In this document: positions 1 through 58,854 of the stretch, piece by piece
Layout of the letters: every line of letters starts with the position of its first letter
Position numbering within the stretch: position 1 is the stretch's first letter
From: Linyphia triangularis
Lineage: Eukaryota > Arthropoda > Arachnida > Araneae > Linyphiidae
Assembly: GCA_963978545.1 (NCBI GenBank)
Contig: OZ021723.1
Coordinates: 9,463,593 to 9,527,592, forward strand
Direction of reading: 5' to 3'
DNA length: 64,000 bases
Program-made: the position numbers and the translations under genes
The notes under the pieces: generated by a model
What the model was told of the DNA's origin: nothing
What the model saw: the letters and a program-made list of their open reading frames with translations, nothing else
The model's database searches: none

Positions 1-54
1 ATCAAACCTTGTCAAATCATTTCAAACGGTTACAGTTAAAACATTCAACATAAA

Positions 55-10700: not shown

Positions 10701-10937
10701 TCTAAGGTTTGGCGAGAATTATGTCTTCACTCCGCCAAAATGGATTAAATTGTTGCAGTTCCTTATGCGCAGTATTAATATACTCTTAAATAAAGAAAGT
10801 AACGATCAGAAACTTGTTTTATTAACAAACCGTTTATTTGAAAAAAAGGAAAAAGAACTACATGAAAGTAGAAGTTACTAAAAATCAAACCTTGTCAAAT
10901 CATTTCAAACGGTTACAGTTAAAACATTCAACATAAA
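6537..10937. repeat. 2.2-kb tandem duplication inside the satellite
   Basis: Runs 1,1,2,1,5 occur twice in succession, at 6537-8737 (2201 bp) and 8738-10937 (2200 bp). Both copies carry CAACTCAT in the linker before the second run, ATTAGGTC in the first monomer of the two-unit run, the TTAATTATG linker, and CTCTTAGG with ATTAGGTC in the first monomer of the five-unit run. The 1-bp difference is an extra A in the linker at 7731. The TTATGTTG change at 6582 is absent from the second copy. Confidence 0.8.
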
Positions 10938-28200: not shown

Positions 28201-30122
28201 CGTCTAAGTGATGTCTAGTTAAGTTGAAGTTTAGTATAGAGAACAAAAGGCTCTAAGGTTTGGCGAGAATTATGTCTTCACTCCACCAAAATGGATTAAA
28301 TACCTATGAGCACTGTGACGATCTACCGTCTAAGTGATGTCTAGTTAAGTTGAAGTTTAGTATAGAGAACAAAAGGCTCTAAGGTTTGGCGAGAATTATG
28401 TCTTCACTCCGCCAAAATGGATTAAATTGTTGCAGTTCCTTATGCGCAGTATTAATATACTCTTAAATAAAGAAAGTAACGATCAGAAACTTGTTTTATT
28501 AACAAACCGTTTATTTGAAAAAAAGGAAAAAGAACTACATGAAAGTAGAAGTTACTAAAAATCAAACCTTGTCAAATCATTTCAAACGGTTACAGTTAAA
28601 ACATTCAACATAAATACCTATGAGCACTGTGACGATCTACCGTCTAAGTGATGTCTAGTTAAGTTGAAGTTTAGTATAGAGAACAAAAGGCTCTAAGGTT
28701 TGGCGAGAATTATGTCTTCACTCCGCCAAAATGGATTAAATTGTTGCAGTTCCTTATGCGCAGTATTAATATACTCTTAAATAAAGAAAGTAACGATCAG
28801 AAACTTGTTTTATTAACAAACCGTTTATTTGAAAAAAAGGAAAAAGAACTACATGAAAGTAGAAGTTACTAAAAATCAAACCTTGTCAAATCATTTCAAA
28901 CGGTTACAGTTAAAACATTCAACATAAATACCTATGAGCACTGTGACGATCTACCGTCTAAGTGATGTCTAGTTATGTTGAAGTTTAGTATAGAGAACAA
29001 AAGGCTCTAAGGTTTGGCGAGAATTATGTCTTCACTCCGCCAAAATGGATTAAATTGTTGCAGTTCCTTATGCGCAGTATTAATATACTCTTAAATAAAG
29101 AAAGTAACGATCAGAAACTTGTTTTATTAACAAACCGTTTATTTGAAAAAAAGGAAAAAGAACTACATGAAAGTAGAAGTTACTAAAAATCAAACCTTGT
29201 CAACTCATTTCAAACGGTTACAGTTAAAACATTCAACATAAATACCTATGAGCACTGTGACGATCTACCGTCTAAGTGATGTCTAGTTAAGTTGAAGTTT
29301 AGTATAGAGAACAAAAGGCTCTAAGGTTTGGCGAGAATTATGTCTTCACTCCGCCAAAATGGATTAAATTGTTGCAGTTCCTTATGCGCAGTATTAATAT
29401 ACTCTTAAATAAAGAAAGTAACGATCAGAAACTTGTTTTATTAACAAACCGTTTATTTGAAAAAAAGGAAAAAGAACTACATGAAAGTAGAAGTTACTAA
29501 AAATCAAACCTTGTCAAATCATTTCAAACGGTTACAGTTAAAACATTCAACATAAATACCTATGAGCACTGTGACGATCTACCGTCTAAGTGATGTCTAG
29601 TTAAGTTGAAGTTTAGTATAGAGAACAAAAGGCTCTAAGGTTTGGCGAGAATTAGGTCTTCACTCCACCAAAATGGATTAAATACCTATGAGCACTGTGA
29701 CGATCTACCGTCTAAGTGATGTCTAGTTAAGTTGAAGTTTAGTATAGAGAACAAAAGGCTCTAAGGTTTGGCGAGAATTATGTCTTCACTCCGCCAAAAT
29801 GGATTAAATTGTTGCAGTTCCTTATGCGCAGTATTAATATACTCTTAAATAAAGAAAGTAACGATCAGAAACTTGTTTTATTAACAAACCGTTTATTTGA
29901 AAAAAAGGAAAAAGAACTACATGAAAGTAGAAGTTACTAAAAATCAAACCTTGTCAAATCATTTCAAACGGTTACAGTTAAAACATTCAACATAAATACC
30001 TATGAGCACTGTGACGATCTACCGTCTAAGTGATGTCTAGTTAAGTTGAAGTTTAGTATAGAGAACAAAAGGCTCTAAGGTTTGGCGAGAATTATGTCTT
30101 CACTCCGCCAAAATGGATTAAA
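25280..30122. repeat. 4.84-kb higher-order block, copy 2 of 3
   Basis: Same run order 7,11,4,1,1,1,2,1 as the block at 2887, with the same diagnostic variants: CTATCGTC near 27508, AAAAGACTCT near 27993, TTATGTTGAAG near 28974 and CAACTCAT near 29203. It is 4843 bp against 4844 bp because of one base deleted in a monomer near 26587. Private changes include TTTCTCGAG near 25869 and CACTCAGCC near 26144, which date after the duplication. Confidence 0.85.
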
Positions 30123-33100
30123 TTGTTGCAGTTAATTATGCGCAGTATTAATATACTCTTAAATAAAGAAAGTAACGATCAGAAACTTGTTTTATTAACA
30201 AACCGTTTATTTGAAAAAAAGGAAAAAGAACTACATGAAAGTAGAAGTTACTAAAAATCAAACCTTGTCAAATCATTTCAAACGGTTACAGTTAAAACAT
30301 TCAACATAAATACCTATGAGCACTGTGACGATCTACCGTCTAAGTGATGTCTAGTTAAGTTGAAGTTTAGTATAGAGAACAAAAGGCTCTTAGGTTTGGC
30401 GAGAATTAGGTCTTCACTCCACCAAAATGGATTAAATACCTATGAGCACTGTGACGATCTACCGTCTAAGTGATGTCTAGTTAAGTTGAAGTTTAGTATA
30501 GAGAACAAAAGGCTCTAAGGTTTGGCGAGAATTATGTCTTCACTCCGCCAAAATGGATTAAATTGTTGCAGTTCCTTATGCACAGTATTAATATACTCTT
30601 AAATAAAGAAAGTAACGATCAGAAACTTGTTTTATTAACAAACCGTTTATTTGAAAAAGAGGAAAAAGAACTACATGAAAGTAGAAGTTACTAAAAATCA
30701 AACCTTGTCAAATCATTTCAAACGGTTACAGTTAAAACATTCAACATAAATACCTATGAGCACTGTGACGATCTACCGTCTAAGTGATGTCTAGTTAAGT
30801 TGAAGTTTAGTATAGAGAACAAAAGGCTCTAAGGTTTGGCGAGAATTATGTCTTCACTCCGCCAAAATGGATTAAATACCTATGAGCACTGTGACGATCT
30901 ACCGTCTAAGTGATGTCTAGTTAAGTTGAAGTTTAGTATAGAGAACAAAAGGCTCTAAGGTTTGGCGAGAATTATGTCTTCACTCCGCCAAAATGGATTA
31001 AATACCTATGAGCACTGTGACGATCTACCGTCTAAGTGATGTCTAGTTAAGTTGAAGTTTAGTATAGAGAACAAAAGGCTCTAAGGTTTGGCGAGAATTA
31101 GGTCTTCACTCCACCAAAATGGATTAAATATCTATGAGCACTGTGACGATCTACCGTCTAAGTGATGTCTAGTTAAGTTGAAGTTTAGTATAGAGAACAA
31201 AAGGCTCTAAGGTTTGGCGAGAATTATGTCTTCACTCCGCCAAAATGGATTAAATTGTTGCAGTTCCTTATGCGCAGTATTAATATACTCTTAAATAAAG
31301 AAAGTAACGATCAGAAACTTGTTTTATTAACAAACCGTTTATTTGAAAAAAAGGAAAAAGAACTACATGAAAGTAGAAGTTACTAAAAATCAAACCTTGT
31401 CAAATCATTTCAAACGGTTACAGTTAAAACATTCAACATAAATACCTATGAGCACTGTGACGATCTACCGTCTAAGTGATGTCTAGTTAAGTTGAAGTTT
31501 AGTATAGAGAACAAAAGGCTCTAAGGTTTGGCGAGAATTATGTCTTCACTCCGCCAAAATGGATTAAATTGTTGCAGTTCCTTATGCGCAGTATTAATAT
31601 ACTCTTAAATAAAGAAAGTAACGATCAGAAACTTGTTTTATTAACAAACCGTTTATTTGAAAAAAAGGAAAAAGAACTACATGAAAGTAGAAGTTACTAA
31701 AAATCAAACCTTGTCAAATCATTTCAAACGGTTACAGTTAAAACATTCAACATAAATACCTATGAGCACTGTGACGATCTACCGTCTAAGTGATGTCTAG
31801 TTATGTTGAAGTTTAGTATAGAGAACAAAAGGCTCTAAGGTTTGGCGAGAATTATGTCTTCACTCCGCCAAAATGGATTAAATTGTTGCAGTTCCTTATG
31901 CGCAGTATTAATATACTCTTAAATAAAGAAAGTAACGATCAGAAACTTGTTTTATTAACAAACCGTTTATTTGAAAAAAAGGAAAAAGAACTACATGAAA
32001 GTAGAAGTTACTAAAAATCAAACCTTATCAACTCATTTCAAACGGTTACAGTTAAAACATTCAACATAAATACCTATGAGCACTGTGACGATCTACCGTC
32101 TAAGTGATGTCTAGTTAAGTTGAAGTTTAGTATAGAGAACAAAAGGCTCTAAGGTTTGGCGAGAATTATGTCTTCACTCCGCCAAAATGGATTAAATTGT
32201 TGCAGTTCCTTATGCGCAGTATTAATATACTCTTAAATAAAGAAAGTAACGATCAGAAACTTGTTTTATTAACAAACCGTTTATTTGAAAAAAAGGAAAA
32301 AGAACTACATGAAAGTAGAAGTTACTAAAAATCAAACCTTGTCAAATCATTTCAAACGGTTACAGTTAAAACATTCAACATAAATACCTATGAGCACTGT
32401 GACGATCTACCGTCTAAGTGATGTCTAGTTAAGTTGAAGTTTAGTATAGAGAACAAAAGGCTCTAAGGTTTGGCGAGAATTAGGTCTTCACTCCACCAAA
32501 ATGGATTAAATACCTATGAGCACTGTGACGATCTACCGTCTAAGTGATGTCTAGTTAAGTTGAAGTTTAGTATAGAGAACAAAAGGCTCTAAGGTTTGGC
32601 GAGAATTATGTCTTCACTCCGCCAAAATGGATTAAATTGTTGCAGTTCCTTATGCGCAGTATTAATATACTCTTAAATAAAGAAAGTAACGATCAGAAAC
32701 TTGTTTTATTAACAAACCGTTTATTTGAAAAAAAGGAAAAAGAACTACATGAAAGTAGAAGTTACTAAAAATCAAACCTTGTCAAATCATTTCAAACGGT
32801 TACAGTTAAAACATTCAACATAAATACCTATGAGCACTGTGACGATCTACCGTCTAAGTGATGTCTAGTTAAGTTGAAGTTTAGTATAGAGAACAAAAGG
32901 CTCTAAGGTTTGGCGAGAATTATGTCTTCACTCCGCCAAAATGGATTAAATTGTTGCAGTTAATTATGCGCAGTATTAATATACTCTTAAATAAAGAAAG
33001 TAACGATCAGAAACTTGTTTTATTAACAAACCGTTTATTTGAAAAAAAGGAAAAAGAACTACATGAAAGTAGAAGTTACTAAAAATCAAACCTTGTCAAA

Positions 33101-36100
33101 TCATTTCAAACGGTTACAGTTAAAACATTCAACATAAATACCTATGAGCACTGTGACGATCTACCGTCTAAGTGATGTCTAGTTAAGTTGAAGTTTAGTA
33201 TAGAGAACAAAAGGCTCTAAGGTTTGGCGAGAATTAGGTCTTCACTCCACCAAAATGGATTAAATACCTATGAGCACTGTGACGATCTACCGTCTAAGTG
33301 ATGTCTAGTTAAGTTGAAGTTTAGTATAGAGAACAAAAGGCTCTAAGGTTTGGCGAGAATTATGTCTTCACTCCGCCAAAATGGATTAAATTGTTGCAGT
33401 TCCTTATGCACAGTATTAATATACTCTTAAATAAAGAAAGTAACGATCAGAAACTTGTTTTATTAACAAACCGTTTATTTGAAAAAAAGGAAAAAGAACT
33501 ACATGAAAGTAGAAGTTACTAAAAATCAAACCTTGTCAAATCATTTCAAACGGTTACAGTTAAAACATTCAACATAAATACCTATGAGCACTGTGACGAT
33601 CTACCGTCTAAGTGATGTCTAGTTAAGTTGAAGTTTAGTATAGAGAACAAAAGGCTCTAAGGTTTGGCGAGAATTAGGTCTTCACTCCACCAAAATGGAT
33701 TAAATACCTATGAGCACTGTGACGATCTACCGTCTAAGTGATGTCTAGTTAAGTTGAAGTTTAGTATAGAGAACAAAAGGCTCTAAGGTTTGGCGAGAAT
33801 TATGTCTTCACTCCGCCAAAATGGATTAAATTGTTGCAGTTCCTTATGCGCAGTATTAATATACTCTTAAATAAAGAAAGTAACGATCAGAAACTTGTTT
33901 TATTAACAAACCGTTTATTTGAAAAAAAGGAAAAAGAACTACATGAAAGTAGAAGTTACTAAAAATCAAACTTTGTCAAATCATTTCAAACGGTTACAGT
34001 TAAAACATTCAACATAAATACCTATGAGCACTGTGACGATGTACCGTCTAAGTGATGTCTAGTTAAGTTGAAGTTTAGTATAGAGAACAAAAGGCTCTAA
34101 GGTTTGGCGAGAATTATGTCTTCACTCCGCCAAAATGGATTAAATTGTTGCAGTTAATTATGCGCAGTATTAATATACTCTTAAATAAAGAAAGTAACGA
34201 TCAGAAACTTGTTTTATTAACAAACCGTTTATTTGAAAAAAAGGAAAAAGAACTACATGAAAGTAGAAGTTACTAAAAATCAAACCTTGTCAAATCATTT
34301 CAAACGGTTACAGTTAAAACATTCAACATAAATACCTATGAGCACTGTGACGATCTACCGTCTAAGTGATGTCTAGTTAAGTTGAAGTTTAGTATAGAGA
34401 ACAAAAGGCTCTAAGGTTTGGCGAGAATTAGGTCTTCACTCCACCAAAATGGATTAAATACCTATGAGCACTGTGACGATCTACCGTCTAAGTGATGTCT
34501 AGTTAAGTTGAAGTTTAGTATAGAGAACAAAAGGCTCTAAGGTTTGGCGAGAATTATGTCTTCACTCCGCCAAAATGGATTAAATTGTTGCAGTTCCTTA
34601 TGCACAGTATTAATATACTCTTAAATAAAGAAAGTAACGATCAGAAACTTGTTTTATTAACAAACCGTTTATTTGAAAAAGAGGAAAAAGAACTACATGA
34701 AAGTAGAAGTTACTAAAAATCAAACCTTGTCAAATCATTTCAAACGGTTACAGTTAAAACATTCAACATAAATACCTATGAGCACAGTGACGATCTACCG
34801 TCTAAGTGATGTCTAGTTAAGTTGAAGTTTAGTATAGAGAACAAAAGGCTCTAAGGTTTGGCGAGAATTATGTCTTCACTCCGCCAAAATGGATTAAATA
34901 CCTATGAGCACTGTGACGATCTACCGTCTAAGTGATGTCTAGTTAAGTTGAAGTTTAGTATAGAGAACAAAAGGCTCTAAGGTTTGGCGAGAATTATGTC
35001 TTCACTCCGCCAAAATGGATTAAATACCTATGAGCACTGTGACGATCTACCGTCTAAGTGGTGTCTAGTTAAGTTGAAGTTTAGTATAGAGAACAAAAGG
35101 CTCTAAGGTTTGGCGAGAATTATGTCTTCACTCCGCCAAAATGGATTAAATACCTATGAGCACTGTGACGATCTACCGTCTAAGTGATGTCTAGTTAAGT
35201 TGAAGTTTAGTATAGAGAACAAAAGGCTCTAAGGTTTGGCGAGAATTAGGTCTTCACTCCACCAAAATGGATTAAATATCTATGAGCACTGTGACGATCT
35301 ACCGTCTAAGTGATGTCTAGTTAAGTTGAAGTTTAGTATAGAGAACAAAAGGCTCTAAGGTTTGGCGAGAATTATGTCTTCACTCCGCCAAAATGGATTA
35401 AATTGTTGCAGTTCCTTATGCGCAGTATTAATATACTCTTAAATAAAGAAAGTAACGATCAGAAACTTGTTTTATTAACAAACCGTTTATTTGAAAAAAA
35501 GGAAAAAGAACTACATGAAAGTAGAAGTTACTAAAAATCAAACCTTGTCAAATCATTTCAAACGGTTACAGTTAAAACATTCAACATAAATACCTATGAG
35601 CACTGTGACGATCTACCGTCTAAGTGATGTCTAGTTAAGTTGAAGTTTAGTATAGAGAACAAAAGGCTCTAAGGTTTGGCGAGAATTATGTCTTCACTCC
35701 GCCAAAATGGATTAAATTGTTGCAGTTCCTTATGCGCAGTATTAATATACTCTTAAATAAAGAAAGTAACGATCAGAAACTTGTTTTATTAACAAACCGT
35801 TTATTTGAAAAAAAGGAAAAAGAACTACATGAAAGTAGAAGTTACTAAAAATCAAACCTTGTCAAATCATTTCAAACGGTTACAGTTAAAACATTCAACA
35901 TAAATACCTATGAGCACTGTGACGATCTACCGTCTAAGTGATGTCTAGTTATGTTGAAGTTTAGTATAGAGAACAAAAGGCTCTAAGGTTTGGCGAGAAT
36001 TATGTCTTCACTCCGCCAAAATGGATTAAATTGTTGCAGTTCCTTATGCGCAGTATTAATATACTCTTAAATAAAGAAAGTAACGATCAGAAACTTGTTT

Positions 36101-39100
36101 TATTAACAAACCGTTTATTTGAAAAAAAGGAAAAAGAACTACATGAAAGTAGAAGTTACTAAAAATCAAACCTTGTCAACTCATTTCAAACGGTTACAGT
36201 TAAAACATTCAACATAAATACCTATGAGCACTGTGACGATCTACCGTCTAAGTGATGTCTAGTTAAGTTGAAGTTTAGTATAGAGAACAAAAGGCTCTAA
36301 GGTTTGGCGAGAATTATGTCTTCACTCCGCCAAAATGGATTAAATTGTTGCAGTTCCTTATGCGCAGTATTAATATACTCTTAAATAAAGAAAGTAACGA
36401 TCAGAAACTTGTTTTATTAACAAACCGTTTATTTGAAAAAAAGGAAAAAGAACTACATGAAAGTAGAAGTTACTAAAAATCAAACCTTGTCAAATCATTT
36501 CAAACGGTTACAGTTAAAACATTCAACATAAATACCTATGAGCACTGTGACGATCTACCGTCTAAGTGATGTCTAGTTAAGTTGAAGTTTAGTATAGAGA
36601 ACAAAAGGCTCTAAGGTTTGGCGAGAATTAGGTCTTCACTCCACCAAAATGGATTAAATACCTATGAGCACTGTGACGATCTACCGTCTAAGTGATGTCT
36701 AGTTAAGTTGAAGTTTAGTATAGAGAACAAAAGGCTCTAAGGTTTGGCGAGAATTATGTCTTCACTCCGCCAAAATGGATTAAATTGTTGCAGTTCCTTA
36801 TGCGCAGTATTAATATACTCTTAAATAAAGAAAGTAACGATCAGAAACTTGTTTTATTAACAAACCGTTTATTTGAAAAAAAGGAAAAAGAACTACATGA
36901 AAGTAGAAGTTACTAAAAATCAAACCTTGTCAAATCATTTCAAACGGTTACAGTTAAAACATTCAACATAAATACCTATGAGCACTGTGACGATCTACCG
37001 TCTAAGTGATGTCTAGTTAAGTTGAAGTTTAGTATAGAGAACAAAAGGCTCTAAGGTTTGGCGAGAATTATGTCTTCACTCCGCCAAAATGGATTAAATT
37101 GTTGCAGTTAATTATGCGCAGTATTAATATACTCTTAAATAAAGAAAGTAACGATCAGAAACTTGTTTTATTAACAAACCGTTTATTTGAAAAAAAGGAA
37201 AAAGAACTACATGAAAGTAGAAGTTACTAAAAATCAAACCTTGTCAAATCATTTCAAACGGTTACAGTTAAAACATTCAACATAAATACCTATGAGCACT
37301 GTGACGATCTACCGTCTAAGTGATGTCTAGTTAAGTTGAAGTTTAGTATAGAGAACAAAAGGCTCTAAGGTTTGGCGAGAATTAGGTCTTCACTCCACCA
37401 AAATGGATTAAATACCTATGAGCACTGTGACGATCTACCGTCTAAGTGATGTCTAGTTAAGTTGAAGTTTAGTATAGAGAACAAAAGGCTCTAAGGTTTG
37501 GCGAGAATTATGTCTTCACTCCGCCAAAATGGATTAAATTGTTGCAGTTCCTTATGCACAGTATTAATATACTCTTAAATAAAGAAAGTAACGATCAGAA
37601 ACTTGTTTTATTAACAAACCGTTTATTTGAAAAAAAGGAAAAAGAACTACATGAAAGTAGAAGTTACTAAAAATCAAACCTTGTCAAATCATTTCAAACG
37701 GTTACAGTTAAAACATTCAACATAAATACCTATGAGCACTGTGACGATCTACCGTCTAAGTGATGTCTAGTTAAGTTGAAGTTTAGTATAGAGAACAAAA
37801 GGCTCTAAGGTTTGGCGAGAATTATGTCTTCACTCCGCCAAAATGAATTAAATACCTATGAGCACTGTGACGATCTACCGTCTAAGTGATGTCTAGTTAA
37901 GTTGAAGTTTAGTATAGAGAACAAAAGGCTCTAAGGTTTGGCGAGAATTATGTCTTCACTCCGCCAAAATGGATTAAATACCTATGAGCACTGTGACGAT
38001 CTACCGTCTAAGTGATGTCTAGTTAAGTTGAAGTTTAGTATAGAGAACAAAAGGCTCTAAGGTTTGGCGAGAATTATGTCTTCACTCCGCCAAAATGGAT
38101 TAAATACCTATGAGCACTGTGACGATCTACCGTCTAAGTGATGTCTAGTTAAGTTGAAGTTTAGTATAGAGAACAAAAGGCTCTAAGGTTTGGCGAGAAT
38201 TAGGTCTTCACTCCACCAAAATGGATTAAATATCTATGAGCACTGTGACGATCTACCGTCTAAGTGATGTCTAGTTAAGTTGAAGTTTAGTATAGAGAAC
38301 AAAAGGCTCTAAGGTTTGGCGAGAATTATGTCTTCACTCCGCCAAAATGGATTAAATTGTTGCAGTTCCTTATGCGCAGTATTAATATACTCTTAAATAA
38401 AGAAAGTAACGATCAGAAACTTGTTTTATTAACAAACCGTTTATTTGAAAAAAAGGAAAAAGAACTACATGAAAGTAGAAGTTACTAAAAATCAAACCTT
38501 GTCAAATCATTTCAAACGGTTACAGTTAAAACATTCAACATAAATACCTATGAGCACTGTGACGATCTACCGTCTAAGTGATGTCTAGTTAAGTTGAAGT
38601 TTAGTATAGAGAACAAAAGGCTCTAAGGTTTGGCGAGAATTATGTCTTCACTCCGCCAAAATGGATTAAATACATATGAGCACTGTGACGATCTACCGTC
38701 TAAGTGATGTCTAGTTAAGTTGAAGTTTAGTATAGAGAAAAAAAGGCTCTAAGGTTTGGCGAGAATTATGTCTTCACTCCGCCAAAATGGATTAAATACC
38801 TATGAGCACTGTGACGATCTACCGTCTAAGTGATGTCTAGTTAAGTTGAAGTTTAGTATAGAGAACAAAAGGCTCTAAGGTTTGGCGAGAATTATGTCTT
38901 CACTCCGCCAAAATGGATTAAATACCTATGAGCACTGTGACGATCTACCGTCTAAGTGATGTCTAGTTAAGTTGAAGTTTAGTATAGAAAACAAAAGGCT
39001 CTAAGGTTTGGCGAAAATTATGTCTTCACTCCGCCAAAATGGATTAAATACCTATGAGCACTGTGACGATCTACCGTCTAAGTGATGTCTAGTTAAGTTG

Positions 39101-42100
39101 AAGTTTAGTATAGAGAACAAAAGGCTCTAAGGTTTGGCGAGAATTATGTCTTCACTCCGCCAAAATGGATTAAATACCTATGAGCACAGTGACGATCTAC
39201 CGTCTAAGTGATGTCTAGTTAAGTTGAAGTTTAGTATAGAGAACAAAAGGCTCTAAGGTTTGGCGAGAATTATGTCTTCACTCCGCCAAAATGGATTAAA
39301 TACCTATGAGCACTGTGACGATCTACCGTCTAAGTGATGTCTAGTTAAGTTGAAGTTTAGTATAGAGAACAAAAGGCTCTAAGGTTTGGCGAGAATTATG
39401 TCTTCACTCCGCCAAAATGGATTAAATTGTTGCAGTTCCTTATGCGCAGTATTAATATACTCTTAAATAAAGAAAGTAACGATCAGAAACTTGTTTTATT
39501 AACAAACCGTTTATTTGAAAAAAAGGAAAAAGAACTACATGAAAGTAGAAGTTACTAAAAATCAAACCTTGTCAAATCATTTCAAACGGTTACAGTTAAA
39601 ACATTCAACATAAATACCTATGAGCACTGTGACGATCTACCGTCTAAGTGATGTCTAGTTAAGTTGAAGTTTAGTATAGAGAACAAAAGGCTCTAAGGTT
39701 TGGCGAGAATTATGTCTTCACTCCGCCAAAATGGATTAAATACCTATGAGCACTGTGACGATCTACCGTCTAAGTGATGTCTAGTTAAGTTGAAGTTTAG
39801 TATAGAGAAAAAAAGGCTCTAAGGTTTGGCGAGAATTATGTCTTCACTCCGCCAAAATGGATTAAATACCTATGAGCACTGTGACGATCTACCGTCTAAG
39901 TGATGTCTAGTTAAGTTGAAGTTTAGTATAGAGAACAAAAGGCTCTAAGGTTTGGCGAGAATTATGTCTTCACTCCGCCAAAATGGATTAAATACCTATG
40001 AGCACTGTGACGATCTACCGTCTAAGTGATGTCTAGTTAAGTTGAAGTTTAGTATAGAGAACAAAAGGCTCTAAGGTTTGGCGAGAATTATGTCTTCACT
40101 CCGCCAAAATGGATTAAATACCTATGAGCACTGTGACGATCTACCGTCTAAGTGATGTCTAGTTAAGTTGAAGTTTAGTATAGAGAACAAAAGGCTCTAA
40201 GGTTTGGCGAGAATTATGTCTTCACTCCGCCAAAATGGATTAAATACCTATGAGCACTGTGACGATCTACCGTCTAAGTGATGTCTAGTTAAGTTGAAGT
40301 TTAGTATAGAGAACAAAAGGCTCTAAGGTTTGGCGAGAATTATGTCTTCACTCCGCCAAAATGGATTAAATACCTATGAGCACTGTGACGATCTACCGTC
40401 TAAGTGATGTCTAGTTAAGTTGAAGTTTAGTATAGAGAACAAAAGGCTCTAAGGTTTGGCGAGAATTATGTCTTCACTCCGCCAAAATGGATTAAATACC
40501 TATGAGCACTGTGACGATCTACCGTCTAAGTGATGTCTAGTTAAGTTGAAGTTTAGTATAGAGAACAAAAGGCTCTAAGGTTTGGCGAGAATTATGTCTT
40601 CACTCCGCCAAAATGGATTAAATACCTATGAGCACTGTGACGATCTACCGTCTAAGTGATGTCTAGTTAAGTTGAAGTTTAGTATAGAGAACAAAAGGCT
40701 CTAAGGTTTGGCGAGAATTATGTCTTCACTCCGCCAAAATGGATTAAATACCTATGAGCACTGTGACGATCTATCGTCTAAGTGATGTCTAGTTAAGTTG
40801 AAGTTTAGTATAGAGAACAAAAGGCTCTAAGGTTTGGCGAGAATTATGTCTTCACTCCACCAAAATGGATTAAATACCTATGAGCACTGTGACGATCTAC
40901 CGTCTAAGTGATGTCTAGTTAAGTTGAAGTTTAGTATAGAGAACAAAAGGCTCTAAGGTTTGGCGAGAATTATGTCTTCACTCCGCCAAAATGGATTAAA
41001 TTGTTGCAGTTCCTTATGCGCAGTATTAATATACTCTTAAATAAAGAAAGTAACGATCAGAAACTTGTTTTATTAACAAACCGTTTATTTGAAAAAAAGG
41101 AAAAAGAACTACATGAAAGTAGAAGTTACTAAAAATCAAACCTTGTCAAATCATTTCAAACGGTTACAGTTAAAACATTCAACATAAATACCTATGAGCA
41201 CTGTGACGATCTACCGTCTAAGTGATGTCTAGTTAAGTTGAAGTTTAGTATAGAGAACAAAAGACTCTAAGGTTTGGCGAGAATTATGTCTTCACTCCGC
41301 CAAAATGGATTAAATACCTATGAGCAATGTGACGATCTACCGTCTAAGTGATGTCTAGTTAAGTTGAAGTTTAGTATAGAGAACAAAAGGCTCTAAGGTT
41401 TGGCGAGAATTATGTCTTCACTCCGCCAAAATGGATTAAATACCTATGAGCACTGTGACGATCTACCGTCTAAGTGATGTCTAGTTAAGTTGAAGTTTAG
41501 TATAGAGAACAAAAGGCTCTAAGGTTTGGCGAGAATTATGTCTTCACTCCACCAAAATGGATTAAATACCTATGAGCACTGTGACGATCTACCGTCTAAG
41601 TGATGTCTAGTTAAGTTGAAGTTTAGTATAGAGAACAAAAGGCTCTAAGGTTTGGCGAGAATTATGTCTTCACTCCGCCAAAATGGATCAAATTGTTGCA
41701 GTTCCTTATGCGCAGTATTAATATACTCTTAAATAAAGAAAGTAACGATCAGAAACTTGTTTTATTAACAAACCGTTTATTTGAAAAAAAGGAAAAAGAA
41801 CTACATGAAAGTAGAAGTTACTAAAAATCAAACCTTGTCAAATCATTTCAAACGGTTACAGTTAAAACATTCAACATAAATACCTATGAGCACTGTGACG
41901 ATCTACCGTCTAAGTGATGTCTAGTTAAGTTGAAGTTTAGTATAGAGAACAAAAGGCTCTAAGGTTTGGCGAGAATTATGTCTTCACTCCGCCAAAATGG
42001 ATTAAATTGTTGCAGTTCCTTATGCGCAGTATTAATATACTCTTAAATAAAGAAAGTAACGATCAGAAACTTGTTTTATTAACAAACCGTTTATTTGAAA

Positions 42101-45100
42101 AAAAGGAAAAAGAACTACATGAAAGTAGAAGTTACTAAAAATCAAACCTTGTCAAATCATTTCAAACGGTTACAGTTAAAACATTCAACATAAATACCTA
42201 TGAGCACTGTGACGATCTACCGTCTAAGTGATGTCTAGTTATGTTGAAGTTTAGTATAGAGAACAAAAGGCTCTAAGGTTTGGCGAGAATTATGTCTTCA
42301 CTCCGCCAAAATGGATTAAATTGTTGCAGTTCCTTATGCGCAGTATTAATATACTCTTAAATAAAGAAAGTAACGATCAGAAACTTGTTTTATTAACAAA
42401 CCGTTTATTTGAAAAAAAGGAAAAAGAACTACATGAAAGTAGAAGTTACTAAAAATCAAACCTTGTCAACTCATTTCAAACGGTTACAGTTAAAACATTC
42501 AACATAAATACCTATGAGCACTGTGACGATCTACCGTCTAAGTGATGTCTAGTTAAGTTGAAGTTTAGTATAGAGAACAAAAGGCTCTAAGGTTTGGCGA
42601 GAATTATGTCTTCACTCCGCCAAAATGGATTAAATTGTTGCAGTTCCTTATGCGCAGTATTAATATACTCTTAAATAAAGAAAGTAACGATCAGTAACTT
42701 GTTTTATTAACAAACCGTTTATTTGAAAAAAAGGAAAAAGAACTACATGAAAGTAGAAGTTACTAAAAATCAAACCTTGTCAAATCATTTCAAACGGTTA
42801 CAGTTAAAACATTCAACATAAATACCTATGAGCACTGTGACGATCTACCGTCTAAGTGATGTCTAGTTAAGTTGAAGTTTAGTATAGAGAACAAAAGGCT
42901 CTAAGGTTTGGCGAGAATTAGGTCTTCACTCCACCAAAATGGATTAAATACCTATGAGCACTGTGACGATCTACCGTCTAAGTGATGTCTAGTTAAGTTG
43001 AAGTTTAGTATAGAGAACAAAAGGCTCTAAGGTTTGGCGAGAATTATGTCTTCACTCCGCCAAAATGGATTAAATTGTTGCAGTTCCTTATGCGCAGTAT
43101 TAATATACTCTTAAATAAAGAAAGTAACGATCAGAAACTTGTTTTATTAACAAACCGTTTATTTGAAAAAAAGGAAAAAGAACTACATGAAAGTAGAAGT
43201 TACTAAAAATCAAACCTTGTCAAATCATTTCAAACGGTTACAGTTAAAACATTCAACATAAATACCTATGAGCACTGTGACGATCTAACGTCTAAGTGAT
43301 GTCTAGTTAAGTTGAAGTTTAGTATAGAGAACAAAAGGCTCTAAGGTTTGGCGAGAATTATGTCTTCACTCCGCCAAAATGGATTAAATTGTTGCAGTTA
43401 ATTATGCGCAGTATTAATATACTCTTAAATAAAGAAAGTAACGATCAGAAACTTGTTTTATTAACAAACCGTTTATTTGAAAAAAAGGAAAAAGAACTAC
43501 ATGAAAGTAGAAGTTACTAAAAATCAAACCTTGTCAAATCATTTCAAACGGTTACAGTTAAAACATTCAACATAAATACCTATGAGCACTGTGACGATCT
43601 ACCGTCTAAGTGATGTCTAGTTAAGTTGAAGTTTAGTATAGAGAACAAAAGGCTCTTAGGTTTGGCGAGAATTAGGTCTTCACTCCACCAAAATGGATTA
43701 AATACCTATGAGCACTGTGACGATCTACCGTCTAAGTGATGTCTAGTTAAGTTGAAGTTTAGTATAGAGAACAAAAGGCTCTAAGGTTTGGCGAGAATTA
43801 TGTCTTCACTCCGCCAAAATGGATTAAATTGTTGCAGTTCCTTATGCACAGTATTAATATACTCTTAAATAAAGAAAGTAACGATCAGAAACTTGTTTTA
43901 TTAACAAACCGTTTATTTGAAAAAGAGGAAAAAGAACTACATGAAAGTAGAAGTTACTAAAAATCAAACCTTGTCAAATCATTTCAAACGGTTACAGTTA
44001 AAACATTCAACATAAATACCTATGAGCACTGTGACGATCTACCGTCTAAGTGATGTCTAGTTAAGTTGAAGTTTAGTATAGAGAACAAAAGGCTCTAAGG
44101 TTTGGCGAGAATTATGTCTTCACTCCGCCAAAATGGATTAAATACCTATGAGCACTGTGACGATCTACCGTCTAAGTGATGTCTAGTTAAGTTGAAGTTT
44201 AGTATAGAGAACAAAAGGCTCTAAGGTTTGGCGAGAATTAGGTCTTCACTCCACCAAAATGGATTAAATATCTATGAGCACTGTGACGATCTACCGTCTA
44301 AGTGATGTCTAGTTAAGTTGAAGTTTAGTATAGAGAACAAAAGGCTCTAAGGTTTGGCGAGAATTATGTCTTCACTCCGCCAAAATGGATTAAATTGTTG
44401 CAGTTCCTTATGCGCAGTATTAATATACTCTTAAATAAAGAAAGTAACGATCAGAAACTTGTTTTATTAACAAACCGTTTATTTGAAAAAAAGGAAAAAG
44501 AACTACATGAAAGTAGAAGTTACTAAAAATCAAACCTTGTCAAATCATTTCAAACGGTTACAGTTAAAACATTCAACATAAATACCTATGAGCACTGTGA
44601 CGATCTACCGTCTAAGTGATGTCTAGTTAAGTTGAAGTTTAGTATAGAGAACAAAAGGCTCTAAGGTTTGGCGAGAATTATGTCTTCACTCCGCCAAAAT
44701 GGATTAAATTGTTGCAGTTCCTTATGCGCAGTATTAATATACTCTTAAATAAAGAAAGTAACGATCAGAAACTTGTTTTATTAACAAACCGTTTATTTGA
44801 AAAAAAGGAAAAAGAACTACATGAAAGTAGAAGTTACTAAAAATCAAACCTTGTCAAATCATTTCAAACGGTTACAGTTAAAACATTCAACATAAATACC
44901 TATGAGCACTGTGACGATCTACCGTCTAAGTGATGTCTAGTTATGTTGAAGTTTAGTATAGAGAACAAAAGGCTCTAAGGTTTGGCGAGAATTATGTCTT
45001 CACTCCGCCAAAATGGATTAAATTGTTGCAGTTCCTTATGCGCAGTATTAATATACTCTTAAATAAAGAAAGTAACGATCAGAAACTTGTTTTATTAACA

Positions 45101-48100
45101 AACCGTTTATTTGAAAAAAAGGAAAAAGAACTACATGAAAGTAGAAGTTACTAAAAATCAAACCTTGTCAACTCATTTCAAACGGTTACAGTTAAAACAT
45201 TCAACATAAATACCTATGAGCACTGTGACGATCTACCGTCTAAGTGATGTCTAGTTAAGTTGAAGTTTAGTATAGAGAACAAAAGGCTCTAAGGTTTGGC
45301 GAGAATTATGTCTTCACTCCGCCAAAATGGATTAAATTGTTGCAGTTCCTTATGCGCAGTATTAATATACTCTTAAATAAAGAAAGTAACGATCAGAAAC
45401 TTGTTTTATTAACAAACCGTTTATTTGAAAAAAAGGAAAAAGAACTACATGAAAGTAGAAGTTACTAAAAATCAAACCTTGTCAAATCATTTCAAACGGT
45501 TACAGTTAAAACATTCAACATAAATACCTATGAGCACTGTGACGATCTACCGTCTAAGTGATGTCTAGTTAAGTTGAAGTTTAGTATAGAGAACAAAAGG
45601 CTCTAAGGTTTGGCGAGAATTAGGTCTTCACTCCACCAAAATGGATTAAATACCTATGAGCACTGTGACGATCTACCGTCTAAGTGATGTCTAGTTAAGT
45701 TGAAGTTTAGTATAGAGAACAAAAGGCTCTAAGGTTTGGCGAGAATTATGTCTTCACTCCGCCAAAATGGATTAAATTGTTGCAGTTCCTTATGCGCAGT
45801 ATTAATATACTCTTAAATAAAGAAAGTAACGATCAGAAACTTGTTTTATTAACAAACCGTTTATTTGAAAAAAAGGAAAAAGAACTACATGAAAGTAGAA
45901 GTTACTAAAAATCAAACCTTGTCAAATCATTTCAAACGGTTACAGTTAAAACATTCAACATAAATACCTATGAGCACTGTGACGATCTACCGTCTAAGTG
46001 ATGTCTAGTTAAGTTGAAGTTTAGTATAGAGAACAAAAGGCTCTAAGGTTTGGCGAGAATTATGTCTTCACTCCGCCAAAATGGATTAAATTGTTGCAGT
46101 TAATTATGCGCAGTATTAATATACTCTTAAATAAAGAAAGTAACGATCAGAAACTTGTTTTATTAACAAACCGTTTATTTGAAAAAAAGGAAAAAGAACT
46201 ACATGAAAGTAGAAGTTACTAAAAATCAAACCTTGTCAAATCATTTCAAACGGTTACAGTTAAAACATTCAACATAAATACCTATGAGCACTCTGACGAT
46301 CTACCGTCTAAGTGATGTCTAGTTAAGTTGAAGTTTAGTATAGAGAACAAAAGGCTCTAAGGTTTGGCGAGAATTAGGTCTTCACTCCACCAAAATGGAT
46401 TAAATACCTATGAGCACTGTGACGATCTACCGTCTAAGTGATGTCTAGTTAAGTTGAAGTTTAGTATAGAGAACAAAAGGCTCTAAGGTTTGGCGAGAAT
46501 TATGTCTTCACTCCGCCAAAATGGATTAAATTGTTGCAGTTCCTTATGCACAGTATTAATATACTCTTAAATAAAGAAAGTAACGATCAGAAACTTGTTT
46601 TATTAACAAACCGTTTATTTGAAAAAGAGGAAAAAGAACTACATGAAAGTAGAAGTTACTAAAAATCAAACCTTGTCAAATCATTTCAAACGGTTACAGT
46701 TAAAACATTCAACATAAATACCTATGAGCACAGTGACGATCTACCGTCTAAGTGATGTCTAGTTAAGTTGAAGTTTAGTATAGAGAACAAAAGGCTCTAA
46801 GGTTTGGCGAGAATTATGTCTTCACTCCGCCAAAATGGATTAAATACCTATGAGCACTGTGACGATCTACCGTCTAAGTGATGTCTAGTTAAGTTGAAGT
46901 TTAGTATAGAGAACAAAAGGCTCTAAGGTTTGGCGAGAATTATGTCTTCACTCCGCCAAAATGGATTAAATACCTATGAGCACTGTGACGATCTACCGTC
47001 TAAGTGGTGTCTAGTTAAGTTGAAGTTTAGTATAGAGAACAAAAGGCTCTAAGGTTTGGCGAGAATTATGTCTTCACTCCGCCAAAATGGATTAAATACC
47101 TATGAGCACTGTGACGATCTACCGTCTAAGTGATGTCTAGTTAAGTTGAAGTTTAGTATAGAGAACAAAAGGCTCTAAGGTTTGGCGAGAATTAGGTCTT
47201 CACTCCACCAAAATGGATTAAATATCTATGAGCACTGTGACGATCTACCGTCTAAGTGATGTCTAGTTAAGTTGAAGTTTAGTATAGAGAACAAAAGGCT
47301 CTAAGGTTTGGCGAGAATTATGTCTTCACTCCGCCAAAATGGATTAAATTGTTGCAGTTCCTTATGCGCAGTATTAATATACTCTTAAATAAAGAAAGTA
47401 ACGATCAGAAACTTGTTTTATTAACAAACCGTTTATTTGAAAAAAAGGAAAAAGAACTACATGAAAGTAGAAGTTACTAAAAATCAAACCTTGTCAAATC
47501 ATTTCAAACGGTTACAGTTAAAACATTCAACATAAATACCTATGAGCACTGTGACGATCTACCGTCTAAGTGATGTCTAGTTAAGTTGAAGTTTAGTATA
47601 GAGAACAAAAGGCTCTAAGGTTTGGCGAGAATTATGTCTTCACTCCGCCAAAATGGATTAAATTGTTGCAGTTCCTTATGCGCAGTATTAATATACTCTT
47701 AAATAAAGAAAGTAACGATCAGAAACTTGTTTTATTAACAAACCGTTTATTTGAAAAAAAGGAAAAAGAACTACATGAAAGTAGAAGTTACTAAAAATCA
47801 AACCTTGTCAAATCATTTCAAACGGTTACAGTTAAAACATTCAACATAAATACCTATGAGCACTGTGACGATCTACCGTCTAAGTGATGTCTAGTTATGT
47901 TGAAGTTTAGTATAGAGAACAAAAGGCTCTAAGGTTTGGCGAGAATTATGTCTTCACTCCGCCAAAATGAATTAAATACCTATGAGCACTGTGACGATCT
48001 ACCGTCTAAGTGATGTCTAGTTAAGTTGAAGTTTAGTATAGAGAACAAAAGGCTCTAAGGTTTGGCGAGAATTAGGTCTTCACTCCACCAAAATGGATTA

Positions 48101-50619
48101 AATACCTATGAGCACTGTGACGATCTACCGTCTAAGTGATGTCTAGTTAAGTTGAAGTTTAGTATAGAGAACAAAAGGCTCTAAGGTTTGGCGAGAATTA
48201 TGTCTTCACTCCGCCAAAATGGATTAAATTGTTGCAGTTCCTTATGCGCAGTATTAATATACTCTTAAATAAAGAAAGTAACGATCAGAAACTTGTTTTA
48301 TTAACAAACCGTTTATTTGAAAAAAAGGAAAAAGAACTACATGAAAGTAGAAGTTACTAAAAATCAAACCTTGTCAAATCATTTCAAACGGTTACAGTTA
48401 AAACATTCAACATAAATACCTATGAGCACTGTGACGATCTACCGTCTAAGTGATGTCTAGTTAAGTTGAAGTTTAGTATAGAGAACAAAAGGCTCTAAGG
48501 TTTGGCGAGAATTATGTCTTCACTCCGCCAAAATGGATTAAATTGTTGCAGTTAATTATGCGCAGTATTAATATACTCTTAAATAAAGAAAGTAACGATC
48601 AGAAACTTGTTTTATTAACAAACCGTTTATTTGAAAAAAAGGAAAAAGAACTACATGAAAGTAGAAGTTACTAAAAATCAAACCTTGTTAAATCATTTCA
48701 AACGGTTACAGTTAAAACATTCAACATAAATACCTATGAGCACTGTGACGATCTACCGTCTAAGTGATGTCTAGTTAAGTTGAAGTTTAGTATAGAGAAC
48801 AAAAGGCTCTAAGGTTTGGCGAGAATTAGGTCTTCACTCCACCAAAATGGATTAAATACCTATGAGCACTGTGACGATCTACCGTCTAAGTGATGTCTAG
48901 TTAAGTTGAAGTTTAGTATAGAGAACAAAAGGCTCTAAGGTTTGGCGAGAATTATGTCTTCACTCCGCCAAAATGGATTAAATTGTTGCAGTTCCTTATG
49001 CACAGTATTAATATACTCTTAAATAAAGAAAGTAACGATCAGAAACTTGTTTTATTAACAAACCGTTTATTTGAAAAAAAGGAAAAAGAACTACATGAAA
49101 GTAGAAGTTACTAAAAATCAAACCTTGTCAAATCATTTCAAACGGTTACAGTTAAAACATTCAACATAAATACCTATGAGCACTGTGACGATCTACCGTC
49201 TAAGTGATGTCTAGTTAAGTTGAAGTTTAGTATAGAGAACAAAAGGCTCTAAGGTTTGGCGAGAATTATGTCTTCACTCCGCCAAAATGAATTAAATACC
49301 TATGAGCACTGTGACGATCTACCGTCTAAGTGATGTCTAGTTAAGTTGAAGTTTAGTATAGAGAACAAAAGGCTCTAAGGTTTGGCGAGAATTATGTCTT
49401 CACTCCGCCAAAATGGATTAAATACCTATGAGCACTGTGACGATCTACCGTCTAAGTGATGTCTAGTTAAGTTGAAGTTTAGTATAGAGAACAAAATTCT
49501 CTAAGGTTTGGCGAGAATTATGTCTTCACTCCGCCAAAATGGATTAAATACCTATGAGCACTGTGACGATCTACCGTCTAAGTGATGTCTAGTTAAGTTG
49601 AAGTTTAGTATAGAGAACAAAAGGCTCTAAGGTTTGGCGAGAATTAGGTCTTCACTCCACCAAAATGGATTAAATATCTATGAGCACTGTGACGATCTAC
49701 CGTCTAAGTGATGTCTAGTTAAGTTGAAGTTTAGTATAGAGAACAAAAGGCTCTAAGGTTTGGCGAGAATTATGTCTTCACTCCGCCAAAATGGATTAAA
49801 TTGTTGCAGTTCCTTATGCGCAGTATTAATATACTCTTAAATAAAGAAAGTAACGATCAGAAACTTGTTTTATTAACAAACCGTTTATTTGAAAAAAAAG
49901 GAAAAAGAACTACATGAAAGTAGAAGTTACTAAAAATCAAACCTTGTCAAATCATTTCAAACGGTTACAGTTAAAACATTCAACATAAATACCTATGAGC
50001 ACTGTGACGATCTACCGTCTAAGTGATGTCTAGTTAAGTTGAAGTTTAGTATAGAGAACAAAAGGCTCTAAGGTTTGGCGAGAATTATGTCTTCACTCCG
50101 CCAAAATGGATTAAATACCTATGAGCACTGTGACGATCTACCGTCTAAGTGATGTCTAGTTAAGTTGAAGTTTAGTATAGAGAACAAAAGGCTCTAAGGT
50201 TTGGCGAGAATTAGGTCTTCACTCCACCAAAATGGATTAAATACCTATGAGCACTGTGACGATCTACCGTCTAAGTGATGTCTAGTTAAGTTGAAGTTTA
50301 GTATAGAGAACAAAAGGCTCTAAGGTTTGGCGAGAATTATGTCTTCACTCCGCCAAAATGGATTAAATACCTATGAGCACTGTGACGATCTACCGTCTAA
50401 GTGATGTCTAGTTAAGTTGAAGTTTAGTATAGAGAACAAAAGGCTCTAAGGTTTGGCGAGAATTATGTCTTCACTCCGCCAAAATGGATTAAATACCTAT
50501 GAGCACTGTGACGATCTACCGTCTAAGTGATGTCTAGTTAAGTTGAAGTTTAGTATAGAGAACAAAAGGCTCTAAGGTTTGGCGAGAATTATGTCTTCAC
50601 TCCGCCAAAATGGATTAAA
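28615..50619. repeat. Repeated cassette of about 2.7 to 2.95 kb (runs 1,1,1,2,1,2,n)
   Basis: A cassette with runs 1,1,1,2,1,2 followed by a run of 3 to 5 starts at 28615, 31443, 35591, 41881 and 44583, and in rearranged form at 47537. Complete cassettes measure 2954, 2828 or 2702 bp according to whether the last run has 5, 4 or 3 monomers. Markers in order are a TTATGTTG monomer, a CAACTCAT linker, an ATTAGGTC monomer, a TTAATTATG linker and a TATGCACAG linker, often with AAAAGAGG. The copy at 35591 is separated from the next by a copy of the 4.84-kb block, so cassettes and large blocks are interleaved. Confidence 0.8.
38545..43388. repeat. 4.84-kb higher-order block, copy 3 of 3
   Basis: Third copy of the block with runs 7,11,4,1,1,1,2,1. 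It shares CTATCGTC near 40771, AAAAGACTCT near 41261, TTATGTTGAAG near 42241 and CAACTCAT near 42467. Length is exactly that of copy 1 (4844 bp). Private changes include GAGCACAG near 39184 and GGATCAAAT near 41687. Confidence 0.85.
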
Positions 50620-51377
50620 TTGTTGCAGTTCCTTATGCGCAGTATTAATATACTCTTAAATAAAGAAAGTAACGATCAGAAACTTGTTTTATTAACAAAC
50701 CGTTTATTTGAAAAAAAGGAAAAAGAACTACATGAAAGTAGAAGTTACTAAAAATCAAACCTTGTCAAATCATTTCAAACGGTTACAGTTAAAACATTCA
50801 ACATAAATACCTATGAGCACTGTGACGATCTGCCGTCTAAGTGATGTCTAGTTAAGTTGAAGTTTAGTATAGAGAACAAAAGGCTCTAAGGTTTGGCGAG
50901 AATTATGTCTTCACTCCGCCAAAATGGATTAAATACCTATGAGCACTGTGACGATCTACCGTCTAAGTGATGTCTAGTTAAGTTGAAGTTTAGTATAGAG
51001 AACAAAAGGCTCTAAGGTTTGGCGAGAATTATGTCTTCACTCCGCCAAAATGGATTAAATACCTATGAGCACTGTGACGATCTACCGTCTTAGTGATGTC
51101 TAGTTAAGTTGAAGTTTAGTATAGAGAACAAAAGGCTCTAAGGTTTGGCGAGAATTATGTCTTCACTCCGCCAAAATTTATTAAATACCTATGAGCACTG
51201 TGACGATCTACCGTCTAAGTGATGTCTAGTTAAGTTGAAGTTTAGTATAGAGAACAAAAGGCTCTAAGGTTTGGCGAGAATTATGTCTTCACTCCGCCAA
51301 AATGGATTAAATACCTATGAGCACTGTGACGATCTATCGTCTAAGTGATGTCTAGTTAAGTTGAAGTTTAGTATAGA

Positions 51378-51624
51378 TCCAGCCTCTATCACAGAATGCT
51401 GGGATGTCCAGAAGAGAGCCCGAATGGTCTGAGACGTCCCCGTAGAAGACATCTACCAAAGTTATTTCACAAGGTTTTCAATACGCCACAGTTTGAAGTA
51501 GATTCCAAATTCACTAAACTCACGTTGAGATGAGATAATCTAACAGCTAACAATGTCTCTCACAATCTCCAACTGTATTGTCCCTAAATGCTAATTTCCG
51601 GATAGCGCTTGAAGTCGGGGAATG
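51378..51624. other. Unique sequence between array edge and candidate exon
   Basis: The array stops abruptly within a monomer (after GTATAGA) and unique DNA of higher GC than the rest of the window begins. On the minus strand this would be the 3' part of the leader before the repeats. No AATAAA or ATTAAA lies in it on that strand, so a transcript would have to run into the satellite, whose linkers do carry AATAAA. Confidence 0.6.
51382..51429 (+). pseudogene. Possible relic of a kinase-domain tail at the array edge
   Basis: Immediately beyond the satellite edge one plus-strand frame reads ASITECWDVQKRARMV and then meets a TGA. The ECWD and AR spacing resembles protein-kinase subdomain XI as found in type II activin/BMP receptors, where a similar motif sits close to the end of the kinase domain. 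Only about 16 residues match, nothing upstream survives because satellite replaces it, and another overlapping plus-strand frame is open for a similar length. Coincidence is quite possible. This strand opposes the candidate transcript described for this region. Confidence 0.2.
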
Positions 51625-51848
51625 TTAAGCTATCACCACATTGATCAGCGCTAGCAATTTTTCCCACGAACTAGTTAACGCCTGTTGATAACCAAGAGTA
51701 TTGAAGTATGGCTGCAATTCTGTTGGCTGCATCTCCTCGATCAGACATTCATTCGTTTGGACCTCCTTTCGGTGATGTACGATAAAATTGAATATACAAT
51801 GACTGTCTCCTTCAACTTTTGAAACATGTGCTCCTAATGATACAATTT
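51625..51848 (-). CDS. Candidate terminal exon, unidentified
   Basis: Minus-strand frame open for 73 codons to TAA at 51627-51625, directly downstream of a good 3' splice site (pyrimidine tract ending TTTCTTAG at 51849). The phase needs one base from an upstream exon. The peptide contains the stretches SKVEGDSHCIFNF, ELQPYFNTLGYQQAL and SSWEKLLAL, looks globular and has no membrane segment. I do not recognise the family. No upstream coding exon in matching phase was found, and joining the short ATG frame at 52613 through the donor at 52581 gives the wrong frame. It could equally be a non-coding exon of a satellite-containing RNA, with the open frame due to chance. Confidence 0.3.
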
Positions 51849-51859
51849 CTAAGAAATAG
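51849..51859 (-). promoter_or_regulatory. 3' splice site duplicated by SINE insertion
   Basis: Minus-strand CTATTTCTTAG precedes the candidate exon. The same string recurs on the far side of the SINE at 52043-52033, where it is preceded by the longer tract GCTTGTTTTTC. Before insertion the acceptor would have read as one strong site, GCTTGTTTTTCCTATTTCTTAG. Now the distal copy keeps the full tract and the proximal copy has SINE tail upstream of it. Confidence 0.55.
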
Positions 51860-52031
51860 ATGGGTTGTTTTCAGATTATCTGGCACCGTCAGCAACACGA
51901 GGGCTATAATGCGCAGAAACTTTCGTCATTTGACAAGCCAACATGCATTTACAAACACCCATGCCTAACACGGGACTCGAACCCTCGCGGTCTAGAAGCT
52001 AGCACGCTAACCACTATACCGTTTGGATGGC
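51860..52031 (-). mobile_element. tRNA-derived SINE, copy 1, full length with 12-bp TSD
   Basis: Read on the minus strand the element has an A-box-like GGTATAGTGGTTAGCGTG and a B box GGTTCGAGTCC, as in a tRNA-headed pol III SINE, followed by a tRNA-unrelated body and an AACCC-type tail. It is flanked by the perfect duplication TCTAAGAAATAG at 51848-51859 and 52032-52043. Compared with the other copies, about 6 bp are missing just before the B box, which weakens the T-stem. It sits at a splice acceptor of the candidate transcript and could be exonised. Confidence 0.9.
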
Positions 52032-52043
52032 TCTAAGAAATAG

Positions 52044-52581
52044 GAAAAACAAGCAATCGATTTGTATGGCATAACTCTGTAAACTGGTTTTGTAAAGTCG
52101 TGTATTTTCTTCATCTGCTTAATGAACGGAAACCGCTTACAACCTATCTACAAGTTAGAGTTAAAAATCAGTGGCTGTGTTGTTATTGGAATCAGAAGTC
52201 TTGACTATTTTATGACTTTAGTTGTATAAAAAATTTCTTGCAATAAGATAAAAGAGGGAGATTCTCTGCTGTACACTCCTGACATTTTGGCTCTTTTTTT
52301 CTTTTTTTTTTTCTACCCGTAAACAAATTAGGATTCTAAAATTATAACGAATCTAATAGTTATGTTTTTGTTTTATACAATACTAGCTGAGGGCAAAGTT
52401 ATATTGAAAAATAATGTTATGAATTCTTCCACCGAGGCAATGATGGCACAGTTTTTACGGTATAAAAATATTTATTCTCTCTTCAAAAGCTCACAAAAGT
52501 TATTCGGAGAACAGTCACTATCAAGCCTCCAAACAAGCTTCAATGAAAACAACTTCGAATACAGCTATTATACAAGCTCAC
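52044..52581. other. Unique region between promoter and SINE; candidate leader and intron
   Basis: AT-rich sequence with no convincing coding frame. On the minus strand, downstream of the predicted start site, potential 5' splice sites are GGA|GTGAGC with GT at 52581-52580 and TTT|GTGAGC with GT at 52504-52503. A strong pyrimidine tract ends at the distal acceptor at 52033. A minus-strand AATAAA is present near 52478. The plus-strand frame at 52362-52589 has no recognisable features. Confidence 0.4.
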
Positions 52582-52675
52582 TCCAATAGGTAAACAAGGC
52601 GATCAGCTTTCATCGAAGTCCGAAGTCAATCTGAAAACTTTCCCGATCTCCGGTCTTTATATACCAGGCGAGTGA

Positions 52676-52693
52676 GAACATTCCCGAAATTTC
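52676..52693 (-). promoter_or_regulatory. Proximal heat-shock element, four perfect phased units
   Basis: The plus strand reads GAAcaTTCccGAAatTTC: four perfect units alternating in orientation at 5-bp spacing, the consensus HSF site. Its near edge is 13 bp from the TATA box. Confidence 0.8.
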
Positions 52694-52712
52694 CAGCCAA
52701 TTATTTGAAAAA

Positions 52713-52735
52713 GAAACATCTCGAAATTTCTCGAT
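52713..52735 (-). promoter_or_regulatory. Distal heat-shock element, five phased units
   Basis: Plus strand GAA-ATC-GAA-TTC-GAT with two-base spacers. Three units are perfect and two have one mismatch, all kept in 5-bp phase. It lies 20 bp upstream of the proximal element, the arrangement expected for cooperative HSF binding. Confidence 0.65.
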
Positions 52736-54160: not shown

Positions 54161-54174
54161 TTTTAATCAGTACT

Positions 54175-54966: not shown

Positions 54967-54983
54967 TAAAGTACTAATTAAAA

Positions 54984-57856: not shown

Positions 57857-57889
<33 letters not shown>

Positions 57890-58004: not shown

Positions 58005-58014
58005 AACTTTAAAC

Positions 58015-58844: not shown

Positions 58845-58854
58845 AACTTTAAAC

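Follow-up and report, generated by a model that had tools for sequence, protein, structure and literature searches.

When what looks like a heat-shock promoter stands beside a satellite array of more than 51 kb and points into it, the question arises whether the array is transcribed under stress or whether promoter and array have come to lie side by side for some other reason. Repeat RNAs with a link to heat have been described in flies, humans and a beetle, each of them wired differently, and we know of no externally driven satellite gene of this kind outside flies; a spider locus of such a kind was likewise absent from the matches listed in the open-licence literature. The reading that we tentatively prefer here, and that we hold to be slightly more doubtful than probable, is that a heat-inducible non-coding RNA would start at about 52632 and run leftward into the array, as a convergent, hsr-omega-like case. 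If this is true, a spider array driven by a single heat-shock promoter outside it would have arisen by convergence and would allow the needs of a stress satellite RNA, namely promoter, strand, length and repeat sequence, to be probed. Positions refer to the window, that is, the whole stretch of 64,000 nucleotides that was analysed, and the features are collected in Table 1.

Table 1. Features of the array, leader and promoter region, with positions in the window and positions relative to the proposed start where these apply.
Feature	Position	Strand	Remarks
Satellite array, 126-bp A and 188-bp B units (A-B pair 314 bp)	1..51377		One orientation
First complete B unit for leftward transcription	50616..50803		Two minus-strand AATAAA, starting at 50708 and 50693
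Leader, 1,255 bp, proposed start to array edge	51378..52632	-	ATG ORFs of 35 aa or less
Best donor-like site, AAC/GTGAGT	51518..51526	-	First intron base 51523; chance level
Target-site duplication copy 1, TCTAAGAAATAG	51848..51859		12 bases
tRNA-derived SINE in leader	51860..52031	-	tRNA-like head on minus strand; class assigned by eye from A-box/B-box-like text
Target-site duplication copy 2, TCTAAGAAATAG	52032..52043		Holds the supposed strong acceptor on minus strand
Sole AATAAA/ATTAAA of leader, transcribed strand	52471..52476	-	Bases 157-162 of proposed transcript
Initiator-like TCAGAT	52629..52634	-	Proposed start at A, 52632, as suggested by motif spacing
TATA box, TATATAAA	52656..52663	-	First T at 52663; -24 to -31 from proposed start
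Proximal HSE, perfect four-unit GAAnnTTCnnGAAnnTTC, 12/12	52676..52693	-	-44 to -61 from proposed start
Distal HSE, GAAnnTTCnnGAAnnTTC at 11/12 positions	52713..52730	-	-81 to -98 from proposed start

Evidence for the preferred reading is given by the heat-shock elements (HSEs). The proximal and the distal HSE are alone in the 64-kb window in matching GAAnnTTCnnGAAnnTTC at no fewer than 10 of 12 positions. The proximal one is moreover the sole exact match there to three or four units, and a TTC-first form of the pattern, for which at least 11 of 12 matches were required, gave no site across the window. Within the 12.6 kb to the right of the array a perfect HSE is expected 0.0019 times under an order-2 model (3 events in 20 Mb), 0.0021 times under an order-3 model (1 event in 6.0 Mb) and 0 times under an order-1 model (none in 6.0 Mb). 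For the HSE pair, the expectation in the 12.6 kb outside the array is about 1e-6, a figure obtained as a product of rates, and 20 Mb of order-2 random sequence contained no pair at all; the pair is far above chance. The exact three-unit pattern provides a weaker test, and its result is unremarkable, with 2 overlapping matches in the whole window and at least 2 in 31 of 100 shuffles. The starts of the two HSEs, which the initial annotation had called phased, are 37 bp apart, which is no multiple of 5.

Downstream of the HSEs, the distance on the minus strand from the start of TATATAAA (52663) to the A of TCAGAT (52632) is 31 bp, and for the motifs used in the scan, combinations of a TATA box and an initiator at 28-33 bases number 2 on the minus strand and 0 on the plus strand of the 12.6 kb, the promoter being one of these 2. 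Two claims of the initial annotation, that a pair of HSEs lies upstream of a TATA box on one strand and that this TATA box is followed by an initiator at the proper distance, are borne out by these results. Judged by their motifs and spacing, the HSEs, TATA box and initiator together form what we regard as a real heat-shock-class RNA polymerase II promoter, pointing leftward into the array, and the fact that the only strong HSEs of the 64 kb closely precede a TATA box and an initiator at suitable distances supports the preferred reading.

The array itself is at least 51,377 bp long, its right edge falling midway through an A unit at 51377 and its left side running off the window. It contains 275 A-unit starts, which follow one another at steps of 126 bp (184 steps), 314 bp (87), 315 bp (2) and 125 bp (1), and 89 complete B units, each directly after an A; the more than 51 kb of tandem repeat that had been proposed beyond the leader is indeed present, and in one orientation throughout. 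Mean differences from the consensus amount to 0.56 bases for A (271 of the 275 units) and 0.57 bases for B (87 of the 89), with more than 99.5% identity, the scoring having set aside the units in the 125- and 315-bp steps and the last, cut A unit. By successive sixths toward 51377 the A units show 0.47, 0.44, 0.33, 0.60, 0.69 and 0.85 differences per unit, and variation is correlated with position (Spearman 0.17, p 0.005; 274 units, not mutually independent); this slight rise speaks weakly for a natural array edge. Alignment of A with B gave nothing above noise (best E 0.80), the same was true of the leader against the array (best E 0.15), and a 34-base piece of the A unit had no exact match among viral contigs. 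The array was also considered as coding sequence and rejected as such: 126 bp is divisible by three, yet stops occur in all six A frames, and the longest open stretch across A frames is 26 residues (65 with B). The RNA structure of the A unit is unremarkable, with z values of -1.29 for the minus strand and -0.83 for the plus strand. A separate observation concerns the order of the units, which recurs (for example, the steps 314-314-314-314-126-314-314-126-314 are found more than once) and suggests a higher-order repeat of several kb that has been copied inside the array.

Between promoter and array lies the leader, which the initial annotation had described as 1.25 kb of unique sequence with donors and a strong acceptor, and here the description has to be revised on both counts. 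The leader contains a SINE that recurs three times in the right flank, near 59985-60118, 60414-60551 (on the other strand) and 61100-61288; besides these SINE copies, comparison of the segment 51378-52860 with 51378-64000 revealed no second copy, and the remaining matches are short ones of 20-42 bases. The best acceptor in the leader (52032) is equalled in 0.34, and the best donor in 0.586, of 500 random sequences with the same dinucleotide make-up when both are scored with generic matrices, which is chance level; moreover, since this strongest acceptor falls inside the target-site duplication of the SINE, it is a by-product of the SINE insertion. The family as a whole comprises four copies in about 10 kb, with tRNA-like heads best preserved at 51860-52031 and 61100-61288. 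Rfam gave no match at the gathering threshold across 48000-64000, the SINE included, and ARAGORN, run with the bacterial code, found no tRNA in the whole window.

As for coding potential, the three minus frames of the leader gave no Pfam hit with E of 1 or less, and for this reason a non-coding product is a fair inference. The ATG ORFs of the leader reach 35 aa, as do those of 0.808 of 1000 random sequences, and its small ORFs are no better than chance. For the longest minus-strand frame between stops in the leader (51625-51867), a search that used 80 of 81 residues and required shared 5-residue words yielded no homologue. When seven ORFs near the promoter were compared with Pfam, three had matches, each far under the curated cut-off. 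These candidates were TRAPP14_N (E = 0.0026, 17.5 bits against a cut-off of 27) and PrlF_antitoxin (E = 0.15), both on the plus ORF 52332-52589, OST48_MD (E = 0.12) on 51625-51870 of the minus strand, and GPI2 (E = 0.038) on 52825-52998 of the plus strand; being sub-cut-off, they were treated as chance.

If the preferred reading is correct, heat-activated HSF would occupy both HSEs and bring about leftward transcription from about 52632, and RNA passing the leader AATAAA would enter the array, giving rise to many minus-sense copies of the A/B repeat under stress. As an alternative end, the AATAAA pair of the first complete B unit is a possible poly(A) site, the use of which would give an RNA of about 2 kb ending near 50.69 kb. 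The repeat RNA may, on the model of hsr-omega and satellite III, hold RNA-binding or RNA-processing proteins in the nucleus under stress, nuclear binding of RNA-processing factors being described in the relevant passages on hsr-omega (PMC9865238) and on satellite III (PMC9032817). In addition to the promoter, we count in favour of this reading the uniform, one-orientation array, as well as the finding that the A consensus is free of poly(A) signals on the minus strand and that there is one in the leader. That leader signal, 157 bases from the start, could nevertheless end the RNA well before the array. Also to be set against the preferred reading are the array, which looks like an ordinary homogenised satellite and in which no stretch of 1-51377 matches GAAnnTTCnnGAAnnTTC at 10 positions of 12 or better, the chance level of the splice sites and ORFs, the sub-cut-off TRAPP14_N match on the promoter side (plus ORF, 52332-52589), and the repeat-rich flank, which shows no recognised host genes and might equally suit a stray promoter fragment. 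The wider claim, that spiders have built their own hsr-omega-like stress gene in which heat stress makes one heat-shock promoter transcribe more than 51 kb of satellite as a nuclear architectural RNA, is one that we regard as doubtful.

The promoter would be accounted for equally well, and with no RNA function required, if it were the remnant of a decapitated heat-shock gene, the Hsp coding body of which was lost or displaced as the satellite moved in or expanded, leaving no selected RNA. Its layout is like that of ordinary hsp70-type promoters as described in the passages of PMC4336284 that deal with them, and the array edge does cut a unit midway at 51377. However, Pfam finds nothing of an Hsp in the three leader frames on the minus strand, and a promoter so intact would imply that the loss was recent; we consider this account unlikely. 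A protein-coding heat-shock gene that carries the array in its first intron, with exon 1 and a donor such as that at 51523 in the leader, would have its coding exons to the left of the window, which ends within the array, and the best leader donor is indeed placed about 145 bp from the array; but the score of that donor is the chance-level one given above, and introns of more than 51 kb are unusual in rapidly induced genes, which leaves this arrangement distinctly unlikely. The repeat-rich flank, with its SINE copies, inverted-repeat elements (54284-54974 and 62041-62739) and retroelement RNase H fragment, is what might be expected if the HSE/TATA unit belonged to a dispersed element, whether an LTR or another kind, that lies next to the array by chance; a mobile promoter is nonetheless improbable, given that 51378-52860 has no second copy within 51378-64000.

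Two other explanations are less likely. An assembly misjoin of flank and array at 51377 would agree with the sharp, mid-unit junction, whereas the A units become slightly more variable toward 51377, as they would at a true array edge, and we see in a misjoin a slim prospect. A slimmer one still is that the HSEs serve a rightward, plus-strand gene, the leftward TATA box and initiator being incidental or a weak divergent start. HSEs may enhance transcription both ways, according to the part of PMC4336284 concerned with these elements, and an ATG in plausible context opens a short plus ORF inside 52825-52998; against this stand the strand distribution of the TATA and initiator combinations in the 12.6 kb, as given above, and the three plus frames of 52694-55700, which are without a Pfam match up to E = 1.

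It remains to compare the locus with known systems, of which hsr-omega, the model for the initial interpretation, comes first. This heat-shock-inducible gene has, as set out in the passages of PMC9865238 on its structure, a leader region of about 1.9 kb, in which an intron of about 700 bp separates exons of about 475 and about 750 bp, followed by long tandem repeats, and no large ORF. The likeness consists in a heat-shock-type promoter, recognised from its motifs, upstream of a same-strand tandem array, with a leader of 1.25 kb in the spider. The differences are that the hsr-omega array measures about 5-15 kb as against more than 51 kb here, that its units are of about 280 bp as against 126 and 188 bp, and that its lineage is that of Drosophila and not of spiders; since the lineage here is very likely that of a spider, the locus is unlikely to belong to the Drosophila gene, and whatever the two have in common would be due to convergence. 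As regards the two exons and intron of hsr-omega, the spider leader has donor- and acceptor-like sites at chance level, which lend no support to an exon-intron structure. Exon 1 of hsr-omega carries a short ORF of 23-27 aa, a range into which leader ORFs of 25 and 26 aa fall, although at least one ORF of 23-27 aa is present in 0.686 of 1000 random sequences. The hsr-omega repeat nonamer, ATAGGTAGG, is absent from the A/B consensus units and the leader, and had no occurrence among the matches listed in the open-licence literature; the minus strand of the A consensus has a single copy of its first seven bases (ATAGGTA), for which the chance for any of three 7-mers is 0.025 (5000 random units). 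In lineage, unit size and nonamer the locus departs from hsr-omega, to which it can be likened in layout but not assigned. What stands of the hsr-omega-like layout first put forward is the order of promoter, leader and one-orientation array, and with it the HSE pair, whereas the donors and strong acceptor, and the argument built on splice sites, do not.

Human satellite III stress transcripts are driven by HSF1, and the likeness to the spider locus is one of stress-factor sites tied to a large satellite and a possible repeat RNA. At human 9q12, however, putative HSEs lie over the satellite III repeats themselves, an unpublished observation of the authors mentioned in the relevant part of PMC9032817, whereas no stretch of the spider array attains 10 of 12 matches. 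For TCAST of Tribolium, the passages of PMC9032817 on this arthropod satellite tie it to heat shock through small RNAs and make no mention of an external heat-shock promoter, while the spider locus has a candidate for one; the two are likened by description. With arthropod hsp70-type promoters the locus shares its HSEs, a TATATA-type TATA box and the spacing of these to the start, as far as the relevant sections of PMC4336284 describe them, and the same sections report that a TATA box and first HSE within 50 bp upstream of the start are common to the hsp70 genes of one non-Drosophila fly; the spider locus differs in having no recognised Hsp coding region within 1.25 kb (Pfam, minus frames).

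Among Pfam matches in the right flank, that of a retroelement RNase H alone passes a cut-off, and further right it is also the sole match at E up to 0.01, in a scan that took in all but the minus frames of 52633-54599 and covered the plus frames of the leader as single ORFs. This retroelement RNase H end, at 58006-58803, is open for 265 codons, and spider names stand on the best 13 of 44 protein matches, the top ones being Parasteatoda, Argiope and Uloborus (55-58% identity for these three), Araneus and Trichonephila; it has no relative among viral contigs. On this basis the window is very likely spider DNA, although a single mobile-element ORF might also have been acquired by horizontal transfer. 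The two inverted-repeat elements cited above are copies of a MITE-like element, about 690-700 bp in length and carrying long inverted repeats internally, the longest arm pairs being 82% and 97% complementary, respectively. The flank also holds a second tandem array at 56148-57343, with about 15 copies of an 80-bp unit, in a region where C exceeds G on the plus strand (skew -0.34 over 56001-58000), and a further array of about 14 copies of a 22-bp unit at 63645-63954, while a hairpin at 54192-54285 is formed by 43-nt arms that are 88% complementary, with 8 nt between them.
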